Part shown: positions 7,567 to 10,749 of the stretch, in pieces | How positions within the stretch are numbered: the stretch's first letter is position 1 | Layout: each line of letters opens with the position of its first letter | From: Nitrososphaerales archaeon TH5894 | Lineage (GTDB): Archaea; Thermoproteota; Nitrososphaeria; Nitrososphaerales; Nitrososphaeraceae | DNA: 10,749 nucleotides | Assembly (NCBI GenBank): GCA_014523485.1 | Contig: JAATVK010000093.1 | Coordinates: 1-10,749 of the forward strand | Direction: 5' to 3' | The notes under the pieces: model-generated | Database searches by the model: none | What the model was told of the DNA's origin: nothing | What the model saw: only the letters and a program-made list of their open reading frames with translations | Made by a program: the position numbers and the translations under genes

Positions 7567-8238
7567 ATGATTATCGATAATTGTAATTTTCCTGATAACT
7601 TATTATATGATCCTGATAGTTTTGTATGGGCAGATGTTTCTAATGAAAACTCCATAAAGATAGGAATAATACCTATCTTAACATCAATTTCAGGTAAACT
7701 AAAATCAATTAAACTCAAAAAAGGAGGTACCAATATTGAGAGAGGTAAAAGCTTAGGTTCGATAGAAAGCCCAAAATATTTCGGAATAGTACGATCTCCC
7801 CTTACTGGAAAGGTAAAAGAAATAAATGAATCGATACTATCTAAACCAAAACAAGTTAATGATAGTCCATATGAATTGGGGTGGTTGTCAACAATTGTAC
7901 CCTCTAATTTGGATAAAGATCTGAATGATTTAAAAAAAATAGGTGGGTGCTCTATTCAGTTTAAATCCCTTATAGATGAATTTCACGTGCGTTGTTTCAA
8001 GGCCTATCCAGACTATGAAATGTATGAACTTGGTACGGAATGTGCTGCAACCCTTACAAAATTGGACGAGCTATTGACTAAAATTGATATAGGCGAAATT
8101 GTTTATTTGGCATCGGATGATATAACTGCAGATCTAGAATTGATGAGATGGTCCAAAGAAAGATCTCAATCAATATTAGAGATGAGAAAAGAAGGTCTCA
8201 TATTTCACTTTTTAGTCAAAAAAGAAAGAAATAATTGA
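7567..8238 (+). CDS. GcvH-like lipoyl carrier fused to a TusA-like sulfur-carrier domain
   Basis: Residues are numbered from the ATG at 7567 (223 residues); in-frame upstream starts at 7549 (ATG) and 7543 (TTG) would add 6 or 8. Residues 6-120 follow the H-protein pattern: 'NFPDNLLYDPDSFVWADV', 'VGI'-like 'KIGIIP', 'SIESPKYFGIVRSPLTGKV' and 'VNDSPYELGWL'. Lys70, in the Glu-Ser-x-Lys turn before 'SPLTGKV', is where GcvH and LbpA are lipoylated. Residues about 153-219 look like TusA: 'GTECAATLTKLDELL' puts Cys159 at the sulfur-carrying position, followed by 'IDIGEIVYLASDD' and a terminal 'IFHFLVKK' strand. The proline after the TusA cysteine (CPxP) is missing, so this half is remote. A tandem rhodanese gene faces it three bases away. 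Context suggests sulfur transfer onto bound lipoate rather than, or besides, glycine cleavage. Lipoyl assignment is strong; TusA assignment moderate. Confidence 0.8.
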   Translation: MIIDNCNFPDNLLYDPDSFVWADVSNENSIKIGIIPILTSISGKLKSIKLKKGGTNIERGKSLGSIESPKYFGIVRSPLTGKVKEINESILSKPKQVNDSPYELGWLSTIVPSNLDKDLNDLKKIGGCSIQFKSLIDEFHVRCFKAYPDYEMYELGTECAATLTKLDELLTKIDIGEIVYLASDDITADLELMRWSKERSQSILEMRKEGLIFHFLVKKERNN

Positions 8239-8241
8239 ATT

Positions 8242-9084
8242 TTATTTTTCAATTGGATTGTCAATCATATTTCCCCATTCTGTCCAAGAACCATCATAAT
8301 TTTTTACATCTGGATATCCAAGGAGATGTCTCAAAACAAACCAGGTATGCGAAGAACGCTCCCCTATTCTACAATATGTAATTATTTCCTTATCTGGTGT
8401 GATACCAACAGTCTGATATAATTTTGTAAGTTCATCAGCCGATTTGAATGTACCGTCATCATTTACTGCTTTAGCCCATGGTATGTTTATCGCTCCTGGA
8501 ATGTGTCCTCCTCTTTGGGCATGTTCTGTAGGGTATTCAGGAGGTGCAGTTATTTCTCCACTAAATTCTGGTGGACTTCTAACATCGATCCTCTTTATTT
8601 GGTCAGAGTTTAACGATTCTCTTACTTGATTAAGGAATGCTCTTAGAGCTGGATTAGGTTCAGAAACTTTAAAATTTCCCATAGGAAAATTGGGAATATC
8701 TTTTGAAATGGGTCTATCTTCTTCAAGCCATTTTTTTCTTCCTCCGTTCATGATTTTTACATTTGTCATACCATAATATTCGAAAACCCAAAAAGCAAAA
8801 GCAGCAAACCAATTATTAAAATCACCATATAATACAAGAATAGTGTCATTATTTATTCCAGATTTTTGTAATAAAGTTGAACAACCATCTTTTGAAATGA
8901 TATTTCTGTTAAGAGGGTCATTTATGTCCTTTCTCCAATCAAATAAAACTGCATTAGGTATATGACCAAGATTATAATTTGCTTTTGGATCATAGTCAAC
9001 TTCGGCTATCCGAACATTATTGTCATTTACATGATCTTCCACCCATTGTGTATCTACTAAAACATTTTGATTTGCATATTCCAT
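8242..9084 (-). CDS. Thiosulfate sulfurtransferase (tandem rhodanese, CysA/SseA type)
   Basis: Rhodaneses carry sulfane sulfur as a cysteine persulfide, taken from thiosulfate or another donor. Two rhodanese domains are visible in 280 residues. The N-terminal one (about 8-125) has 'HIPNAVLFDW' (41-50) and 'VKIMNGGRKKWL' (109-120), but 'LYGDFNNWFA' (85-94) in place of the active-site loop, so it lacks the cysteine and is structural. The C-terminal one (about 145-275) has 'RIDVRSPPEFSGE' (165-177), 'GGHIPGAINIPW' (192-203) and the active loop 'CRIGERSS' (238-245) with Cys238, then 'NYDGSWTEWGN' (262-272). The CRIGERS loop matches mycobacterial CysA/SseA proteins and bovine-type thiosulfate sulfurtransferases (CRxGxx). 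It is cytoplasmic, with no signal peptide. The convergent gene three bases away encodes a lipoyl/TusA-like protein, a plausible acceptor. Confidence 0.93.
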   Translation of the reverse strand: MEYANQNVLVDTQWVEDHVNDNNVRIAEVDYDPKANYNLGHIPNAVLFDWRKDINDPLNRNIISKDGCSTLLQKSGINNDTILVLYGDFNNWFAAFAFWVFEYYGMTNVKIMNGGRKKWLEEDRPISKDIPNFPMGNFKVSEPNPALRAFLNQVRESLNSDQIKRIDVRSPPEFSGEITAPPEYPTEHAQRGGHIPGAINIPWAKAVNDDGTFKSADELTKLYQTVGITPDKEIITYCRIGERSSHTWFVLRHLLGYPDVKNYDGSWTEWGNMIDNPIEK

Positions 9085-9246: not shown

Positions 9247-9759
9247 TTAATAAAATGAAACCTGAATATCAAAAACTATATCTTTAATTCTATCTATATC
9301 TTTTAATCCAGTCTTATAAATTATGTTTATATGGTGTCTAAAATATTCAATTTCATCATATGAACATGCTAAAAATGGATATGGAGCAATAGCATTTATA
9401 ACTTTTTTGTCATGATCAATTCCATTTTTTTGTAATGCAATTAATGTTTGCCCAGACAAATGACCTTTAACTTCTTCTCCGCAGAGTAAAAGATATCTCA
9501 AACTTTTATTATTTGTAGTAAATTTGATAATTTCATCTATTCCTTTATTTTCTGAAAGTAATCTTCCTACAATAAAAATTTTATCCATAATCTCTTGGTT
9601 ATTTTTGATCTCTTTGAGTAAATCTAAACTTGATAAAGTACAAATTGCTATTGTTCTTCCTTTTCCAATATAATACTCTGGCTTAAGGGGAAATAAATGA
9701 TAACAACAAATTCCAAAAATATTATCTATTCGTGCTTTGAGTTTAATTCTATCTCCCAT
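9247..9759 (-). CDS. MtrA-like corrinoid protein (tetrahydromethanopterin S-methyltransferase subunit A family), soluble
   Basis: MtrA is the subunit of the methanogen Mtr complex that carries the methyl group on a cobalamin between methyl-tetrahydromethanopterin and coenzyme M. This 170-residue protein follows the MtrA pattern: 'YIGKGRTIAICTLSS' (30-44), 'IFIVGRLLSENKGIDEII' (61-78), 'SLRYLLLCGEEVKGHLSGQ' (86-104), 'LIALQKNGIDHDKKVINAIA' (106-125) and 'EIEYFRHHI' (136-144). His100, in the G-H-x-x-G-Q turn, corresponds to His84 of Methanothermobacter MtrA, the cobalt-binding histidine. The C-terminal membrane anchor of methanogen MtrA is absent, so the protein is cytoplasmic. No other mtr gene is visible. 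A role as a corrinoid methyl carrier, or a repurposed pterin/cobalamin-binding protein, is inferred. A 28-base gap separates it from the gene upstream, but a TATA-like box lies there. Confidence 0.85.
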   Translation of the reverse strand: MGDRIKLKARIDNIFGICCYHLFPLKPEYYIGKGRTIAICTLSSLDLLKEIKNNQEIMDKIFIVGRLLSENKGIDEIIKFTTNNKSLRYLLLCGEEVKGHLSGQTLIALQKNGIDHDKKVINAIAPYPFLACSYDEIEYFRHHINIIYKTGLKDIDRIKDIVFDIQVSFY

Positions 9760-9778: not shown

Positions 9779-9788
9779 TATAAATATT
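9779..9788 (-). promoter_or_regulatory. TATA-like box of the MtrA-like gene
   Basis: The minus strand reads aaatatttata, centred about 25 bases before the ATG at 9759 and touching the stop codon of the gene upstream. The MtrA-like gene could thus be transcribed alone as well as by read-through. Confidence 0.3.
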
Positions 9789-10749
9789 TAATTAATTTTT
9801 GAAGTATTATTATCAATAACAATTTTTCTTCTTTTTGACTGAATAATTCCCATTAATTGATAACCATATTCAAGATTGTGTTTGATATGATTGATTCCAT
9901 GTTTCCCTTTTGGCACAAAAGAACCGTCCAAAATACTCTCCAAATATGTTTTTGTTTTTTTGATTGAGTTTGCTGCATGTTGTAGCTGACTTCCAGACAA
10001 TTTTCTCCCAGCTTCTTTCTCTATAAGCTTACTAAATCCTTCTGTGGACATAAATTGACTATATTCCTGAAGTTTATGATAATTTCTACAAATATTTTCT
10101 ATTTTTTGTTTATCAGGTTCTATTAAACTTCGAAATGCATTTTGTATTTCTTTTTCGTTTCTTCCAGTAAGTTTTACTAATATTTCAAAAGTTTCATTAT
10201 TTTGAATATCTTGTAAACTATTGCTTTCTATTTTAATTGACAATATTTTTTTTAATTCATCTTCGAAATTGAGTTTTGAATTTTGATAATAACCGTTAAT
10301 GGCAAACAGATTTACAGAATTGCCTACAATATCTTCCCCATATTTTATTATATACATCAAATTTACAATTATAACCGGAAAAATAAGCTTTAGGTTTTCG
10401 TTTAATTTATTATAATTTTCCATTATATCTTTATATATATTAAATGTAATTGTATTAACTACATCTTTTTTCCTTTCATCTATAATTCTAGACATTATTG
10501 TTAAAAGATCAAATAGTTGAGATTGAGAAAAAAACTCCTTATTTTTTACAGAATAAATAGCTATTATCTTTAATGCATATAACCATTTTTCTGAAGGATT
10601 TTTATGGAGAGTATTTCTTGAAATCTCTTTAACATTTTTTTTCATTTCACTATTATCTAGATTAATAAGATCAAAAATATTATCGATTATTTCGTTTATA
10701 GATATTTTCTCATTACTCCAATTTTGTAATATTTTATGTTTGTTTTGCA
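9788..10749 (-). CDS. Unrecognised helical protein, 5' end beyond the window
   Basis: The stop is at 9788-9790. The first in-frame ATG inside the window is at 10645 (285 residues), but the same frame stays open for 34 more codons to the right edge with protein-like content, so the true start probably lies outside. I do not recognise the family. The protein looks almost entirely alpha-helical and Lys/Asn/Ile-rich, with no signal peptide or cysteine cluster; one hydrophobic stretch (94-107 from that ATG) is more likely a buried helix than a membrane span. The C-terminal part, 'GRKLSGSQLQHAANSIKKTK' (213-232) followed by 'SFVPKGKHGINHIKHNLEYG' (242-261), is rich in Gly, His and basic residues and appears the most constrained segment. 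It is 28 bases upstream of the MtrA-like gene on the same strand and might share a transcript with it. Confidence 0.7.
   Translation of the reverse strand, partial: QNKHKILQNWSNEKISINEIIDNIFDLINLDNSEMKKNVKEISRNTLHKNPSEKWLYALKIIAIYSVKNKEFFSQSQLFDLLTIMSRIIDERKKDVVNTITFNIYKDIMENYNKLNENLKLIFPVIIVNLMYIIKYGEDIVGNSVNLFAINGYYQNSKLNFEDELKKILSIKIESNSLQDIQNNETFEILVKLTGRNEKEIQNAFRSLIEPDKQKIENICRNYHKLQEYSQFMSTEGFSKLIEKEAGRKLSGSQLQHAANSIKKTKTYLESILDGSFVPKGKHGINHIKHNLEYGYQLMGIIQSKRRKIVIDNNTSKIN

Follow-up and report, generated by a model that had tools for sequence, protein, structure and literature searches.

A rhodanese-linked LbpA-TusA fusion protein of Thermoproteota with three invariant cysteines: a candidate lipoate-independent sulfane-sulfur relay

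A gene encoding an LbpA-type domain fused to a TusA-type domain was identified beside a two-domain rhodanese gene in a 10,749-nucleotide stretch of DNA (the window) from Nitrososphaerales archaeon TH5894. Three cysteines of the fusion are invariant among its homologues and the lysine of its lipoyl position is not; at a little better than an even chance, the protein is a lipoate-independent relay or carrier of sulfane sulfur in which protein cysteines replace the lipoyl arm. Tentatively, and somewhat short of an even chance, we extend this to a lipoate-free, rhodanese-linked relay outside the sHdr system, with a three-cysteine chain in one polypeptide in place of the lipoyl arm, which would operate in soil and hot-spring ammonia-oxidising archaea and in other families of Thermoproteota and would provide ammonia oxidisers with a dedicated thiosulfate/sulfane-sulfur pathway. 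The features concerned are given below by window position. Handles beginning with G, L and f denote genomes, loci and families, and G000 is the window's own genome.

7567..8238, + strand: LbpA-TusA fusion gene, 223 aa, ATG start (open reading frame, translation, Pfam, homologues)
7567..7998, + strand: LbpA/GcvH-type N-domain including the C-terminal Cys tail, residues 1-144 (GCV_H match, alignment with standalone LbpA-type proteins of f42, tree)
7582..7584, + strand: Cys6 codon, aligning with the LbpA N-terminal hallmark Cys (Cys 89/90, gap 1)
7774..7776, + strand: Lys70 codon, lipoyl-lysine position (Lys 24/90, Arg 49, other 17)
7948..7950, + strand: Cys128 codon, partly conserved (Cys 43/90)
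7993..7995, + strand: Cys143 codon, aligning with the LbpA C-terminal hallmark Cys (90/90)
8005..8226, + strand: TusA-type C-domain, about residues 147-220 (PF01206 in 69/69 members, profile matches to TusA-family PDB chains, Foldseek)
8041..8043, + strand: Cys159 codon, TusA Cys position, CAAT in place of CPxP (Cys 90/90)
8242..9084, - strand: two-domain rhodanese of the thiosulfate/3-mercaptopyruvate sulfurtransferase type (PF00581 E=9.6e-36, two stretches; PRK11493-like)
8371..8373, - strand: rhodanese Cys238 codon, CRIGERS loop (Cys in 65/65 aligned rhodaneses)

The window protein matched the Pfam family GCV_H above the cut-off (E=1.5e-22, residues 20-122) and the TusA family PF01206 below it (E=4.9e-5, residues 156-219, 23.5 bits against a curated 28.6). 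Both families were matched by all 69 aligned homologues from the class at E<=0.01 (best TusA match 1.2e-10), so that chance is excluded for the domain make-up and the fusion of an LbpA-type with a TusA-type domain is confirmed. The preliminary description had claimed a single protein with a lipoyl (GcvH/LbpA-like) and a TusA-like domain and had named Lys70 (7774-7776) and Cys159 (8041-8043); the domains and both codons were found as claimed, and the TusA assignment held in the profile comparison.

Structure prediction gave a divided result. The AlphaFold model of the whole protein, built on 5 alignment rows, was poor overall (mean pLDDT 43.8), with block means of 64-84 from residue 161 onward, and a model of the C-domain alone was little better (mean pLDDT 53.7); neither model reliably placed the three cysteines near each other. 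The elements of the C-domain in the first model were a strand (151-154), a helix (159-170), a strand (178-183), a helix (188-199) and two strands (202-209 and 212-218), the strand and helix order of TusA, and Cys159 lies at the start of helix 1, where the active cysteine of TusA is expected. A Foldseek search of the PDB with the part from residue 161 onward placed entries of YeeE-YeeD and of TusA/YhhP from E. coli at ranks 1 to 6, with C-terminal domains of IF3 next; chain 3lvj_C was matched at E=2.7e-4 with a TM-score by target of 0.83, the query model being of modest confidence. TusA-family PDB chains were also matched by the family profile (E=0.0003-0.007). Thus the TusA fold was recovered by PF01206 in 69/69 homologues and by Foldseek. 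The proline of the CPxP motif, reported missing in the preliminary description, is missing throughout: CPxP occurs in 0/90 fusions and CP in 1/90, mostly with C-[AS]-x-x instead. In the available text of PMC11073785, CPxP is linked to helix capping and reactivity, and YeeD, a member of the TusA family, decomposes thiosulfate through its conserved cysteine, which TusA itself could not. The fusion differs from TusA and YeeD (TsuB) in this replaced motif, in its position behind an LbpA-type domain and in the score of the window protein below the PF01206 cut-off. It is the sole PF01206 match at E<=0.001 in G484, G549, G584 and G695; the tested f1/f3 genomes carry an additional, separate PF01206 protein (canonical TusA family) that is a stronger match than the fusion.

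The fusion is a family of the Thermoproteota. Matches at E<=1e-30 were found in 75 of 400 genomes of the class (families f1, f3, f4, f7, f12 and f20), one of them, in G277, covering residues 2-103 only, and among the f2 genomes listed in that search the matches were weak or partial. When 398 genomes of the phylum were searched with a profile, full-length matches were obtained in 24 genomes outside the class (f37, f52, f68 and f79). Loci were read for 70 of the 75 class genomes (all except G163, G201, G277, G302 and G331); the 75 loci gave 69 proteins, the window protein included, after removal of L012 (stop-broken frame) and L035 (which has only a GcvH) and collapsing of identical proteins. 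The set of 90 proteins comprises these 69 and 21 of the 25 full-length places from outside the class, namely those with a locus. Beyond the Thermoproteota, the search consisted of one scan of genome contigs for peptide patterns taken from the window protein, which returned four fusion loci (Nitrososphaeraceae/Nitrososphaerales) and one GcvH-type protein (Sunxiuqinia). The nearest named loci to the window fusion are in Nitrososphaeraceae or Nitrososphaerales MAGs, with a protein identity of 88-91%. amoA was not found in G000 (87.5% complete) and is present in both tested genomes of its genus. It is absent from the one or two genomes tested in each of f4, f7, f12, f20, f37, f52, f68 and f79, so that the fusion family is not tied to ammonia oxidation.

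Across the 90 fusions Cys143, Cys159, Trp106, Trp195 and Pro148 were each present in all 90, and Cys6 in 89 with one gap. Exactly three cysteines occur in 24 of the 90 rows, and Cys128 is a cysteine in 43. The preliminary description had singled out Cys159, which is indeed invariant throughout, and had overlooked the invariant Cys6 and Cys143 as well as the adjoining rhodanese. In the available part of PMC6067878, two hallmark cysteines, one N-terminal and one C-terminal, are present in LbpA and missing in GcvH. Cys6 and Cys143 of the fusion align with the N- and C-terminal cysteines of standalone LbpA-type proteins from f42 genomes (L126-L130), f42 being probably the Sulfolobaceae. A second kind of f42 protein is without either cysteine (L127:3990-4415, L128:4614-5069, L131 and L132). 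The surroundings of L127 include a pair of LplA-type genes and one for TusA, a gene set that is as expected for the sHdr/LbpA setting.

A quick N-domain tree without bootstrap was built from 72 rows (46 fusions from the set of 90 plus 26 standalone proteins, after removal of a single TusA match). The LbpA-type proteins and the fusions were split from the proteins with a GcvH motif (SH-aLRT 99), which we take to be GcvH from their ESVKA-type motif and not from a tool label. All fusions fell in one group (support 79), and this group joined the cysteine-less f42 proteins (SH-aLRT 88) rather than the cysteine-bearing ones; the shared descent of the two cysteines therefore rests on the alignment. 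The fusion shares the Pfam family GCV_H with GcvH, and its best PDB sequence matches are H proteins; it differs in its separate branch and in the two cysteines that GcvH does not have in the available text of PMC6067878. A GcvH function of the N-domain was rejected on account of these LbpA-type cysteines and the LbpA side of the tree. We classify the N-domain, from alignment and tree, as LbpA-type, and the whole protein would most plainly be read as an LbpA, cysteine tail included, with a TusA domain immediately behind it. Separate LbpA-type, LplA-type and TusA genes stand side by side at L133:402-1864 in G554, which also carries a fusion.

The rhodanese gene is convergent with the fusion gene in the window, the two ends being separated by 3 bases. 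It has two rhodanese domains with the active cysteine in the second, and Cys238 is present in all 65 aligned rhodaneses (those >250 aa, repeats included), within CRIGERS in 59 and CRIGERA in 6. In its two PF00581 stretches, its likeness to PRK11493 and its Cys238 loop it resembles rhodaneses of the TST/MST, SseA type; what sets it apart is that it is the type that accompanies the fusion. Rhodanese was the only widely shared neighbour by clustering of open reading frames (55/69 loci). In GC-rich loci the chosen frames could overlap true genes of the opposite strand (cluster 46 lay over the rhodanese in L065, and the fusion was missed in L053 and L059), and rhodanese was therefore recounted by tblastn. 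A two-domain rhodanese was found near the fusion in 79 of 94 loci, or 76 of 91 when the three repeated places (L031/L002, L032/L003 and L034/L025, all with rhodanese) were counted once. It was convergent downstream in 64 of the 79, upstream in the same direction in 14 and downstream in the same direction in 1, mostly within 250 bases and at about 4.35 kb in four f3 loci. The pair is kept while its order and outer neighbours vary. In its commonest, convergent order, the fusion and the rhodanese would have no shared transcript.

No rhodanese was found within the flank examined in the other 15 of the 94 loci. This flank was about 1.5 kb or less per side in L005, L007, L016, L017 and L027, and a contig end was close on one side in L029, L045 and L111. 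At L038 the downstream side reached 3.8 kb, less than the 4.35 kb distance seen in relatives; at L060 the upstream side spanned 4.9 kb and the downstream side 1.8 kb, and at L068 they spanned 3.0 and 6.1 kb. In L112, L113, L116 and L119 the roughly 8 kb examined on each side contained no rhodanese. The rhodanese-less f52 fusions of L113, L116 and L119 are followed in the same direction by a gene named ABC-ATPase-like from its sequence, not from a profile (cluster N2), and by gene N6. At genome level, the closest rhodanese type (E<=1e-123) was found in 68 of the 75 genomes with a fusion and in 3 of the remaining 325, counts that come from hand-entered lists, are uncorrected for ancestry and depend on a threshold chosen after viewing the list, which has no clean gap (the fusion-less G112 stands at 5.0e-123). 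The three exceptions, G185, G189 and G381, have the close type and no fusion in the stretches examined. A second two-domain rhodanese-type match in the window's genome (G000:C3:17028-17882) is 68% identical to the neighbour of the fusion.

The lipoyl-lysine position tells a different story from the cysteines. The residue is Lys in 24 of the 90 fusions, the window protein among them, Arg in 49 and Asn, Ser, Thr, Ile, Val or Leu in 17; it changed between Lys and not-Lys 17 times on a quick tree built without this column, and a Lys at position 68, 69, 71 or 72 was found in only 1 of the 66 fusions without Lys70. A conserved lipoyl lysine, a feature of LbpA and GcvH, is thus not kept across the fusion family, and according to the available part of PMC6067878 it is strictly conserved in 95 LbpA proteins. 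The preliminary description had treated Lys70 lipoylation as the chemistry of the family and had staked this in advance on conservation of the lysine; its proposed survey of Nitrososphaeria upheld the occurrence of the fusion (75/400 genomes) and the invariance of Cys159, but the lysine was not conserved and the lipoylation claim is not supported. The more general claim of a role in sulfur trafficking is supported as likely. Six of the seven tested f1/f3 fusion genomes (G000, G067, G070, G093, G100 and G077) gave no match to PF21948, the catalytic domain of LplA/LipB, and in the seventh, G082, a single weak match fell under the cut-off and overlapped the PF03099 match of that genome; hence none of the seven has a clear lipoate ligase. 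Each has one PF03099 protein, and that of G000 carries a biotin-ligase C domain and is predicted to be a biotin ligase. Likewise, five Thaumarchaeota surveyed in the available text of PMC3904984 were without lipoylation genes.

It is very improbable, in light of these counts, that Lys70 bears lipoate and that the TusA domain loads sulfur onto a lipoyl arm in the same chain. The window protein and 23 further homologues do have the residue, LplA/LipB-type proteins occur in fusion genomes of other families (G166, G004, G414, G484, G549, G584, G695 and G554), and the standalone LbpA2 of Hyphomicrobium requires its lipoate ligase to function (PMC10332631, available part). However, most fusions have neither this lysine nor one nearby, the window's own genome, at 87.5% completeness, offers only the predicted biotin ligase, and Lys70 does not track the presence of a lipoate ligase: among 14 genomes, Lys was found in 2 of 7 without LplA and 2 of 7 with it (G414 unscored). 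The three invariant cysteines, none of them within a CPxP motif, could instead bind a metal or act as a disulfide switch, in which case the protein would sense sulfide or redox state, or serve the rhodanese as a scaffold, and would be no carrier. The invariant Trp106, Trp195 and Pro148 suggest a fixed structure, yet two of the cysteines align with those of a sulfur-carrier family, the third occupies the carrier position of TusA, and no DNA-binding or signalling domain was found in the window protein above the Pfam cut-off; we consider this reading unlikely.

Other neighbours bear on a further alternative. After rhodanese, the next neighbour clusters are each found largely in one lineage: SIS/glutamine-amidotransferase (cluster 2, 14 loci), Elp3-like (cluster 9, 8 loci) and hydrolase and CoA-ligase types (clusters 16 and 17, 6 loci each). 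The Elp3-like gene, which we take as such by name from its radical SAM and GNAT domains (representative L052:6653-8044), was seen at 8 of the 69 loci; at 7 of these it precedes the fusion on the same strand, an arrangement that would suit delivery of sulfur to tRNA (s2U34-type thiolation) together with Elp3. Among these loci are L048, L051, L052, L054 and L067, with a small open reading frame between the two genes in L054. TusA takes part in the thiomodification of tRNA (PMC11073785, available text), but the Elp3-like neighbour was seen in the single family f4, and the f1/f3 genomes also encode a separate canonical TusA-family protein; delivery to tRNA is accordingly quite unlikely, more so than a metal site or switch.

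The known partner of LbpA was also considered. LbpA genes accompany shdr and lipoate-assembly genes, and no fusion to TusA is described, in the available parts of PMC6067878 and PMC10332631. The fusion shares with LbpA the GcvH-type domain, both hallmark cysteine positions and the tree side away from GcvH, whereas it lacks the strict lysine and is nearest to the cysteine-less f42 proteins. PF02754 (HdrB-type) was not found in G000, G082, G070, G093, G100, G077, G584 and G695; G067 had one match (4.3e-5) above the cut-off, and clear matches were present in G166, G004, G414, G484, G549 and two f42 genomes. Judged by PF02754 and PF21948, the setting of shdr genes with a dedicated lipoate-assembly set was not found in the tested f1/f3 genomes, and both occur in the genome in other families. 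With almost no HdrB-type protein (the one match in G067), an sHdr partner was rejected for the tested f1/f3 genomes, where such a partnership is unlikely. Elsewhere, Arg replaces the lipoyl Lys in GcvH/LbpA-like proteins at L138:4026-4475, L145:1020-1517 and L145:1517-1894 (0, 0 and 1 cysteines, respectively), in loci shared with CCG (HdrB-type) genes; these proteins appear to form a further lysine-less LbpA-like lineage.

For the preferred reading, a lipoate-independent relay, we infer the individual transfers, their order and the acceptor as follows. The adjoining rhodanese would accept sulfane sulfur, from thiosulfate or 3-mercaptopyruvate, on Cys238 and would hand it to Cys159 of the TusA domain. 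The next recipient would be Cys143, which lies in the tail of the LbpA domain immediately ahead of the TusA domain, or Cys6, or both, with a persulfide retained or a disulfide closed. The LbpA domain might then present the sulfur to an acceptor other than sHdr, at least in the tested genomes of ammonia oxidisers. The invariance of Cys6, Cys143 and Cys159, the alignment with the LbpA hallmarks, the split in the tree, the drift of Lys70, the lack of PF21948 and of PF02754 in six each of the seven tested f1/f3 genomes, and the rhodanese linkage at locus and genome level were counted for such a relay. Counted against it were the missing CPxP, the cysteine-less tree neighbours, the convergent gene order, the 15 rhodanese-less loci, the three fusion-less genomes with the close rhodanese type, the limits of the genome-level count, the LplA-type and CCG proteins in fusion genomes of other families and the PF02754 match of G067.

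The retention of the LbpA cysteines and the TusA domain while the lipoyl lysine drifts suggests that the cysteines themselves are functional in the LbpA fold, which is testable in LbpA. The rhodanese and the fusion make a concrete two-gene candidate module for the handling of sulfane sulfur in ammonia-oxidising archaea. No description of the fusion was found in the titles and abstract openings of the literature searched, with subscription papers and preprints mostly outside this search, and none of a rhodanese and fusion module in ammonia-oxidising archaea was found in the same literature.

Three further open frames of the window were annotated. A 319-aa frame (9788-10747, - strand) runs off the window, and its best Pfam match (E=0.087) is unconvincing. 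The protein at 9247-9759 (- strand) has an MtrA domain (PF04208, E=2.9e-23), of the family of methanogen methyltransferase subunit A, in a Nitrososphaeraceae-type genome. At the other end, a radical SAM protein cut by the window start (2-1255, + strand) matched the model of the tetraether lipid synthase Tes with 502 bits against a cut-off of 450.
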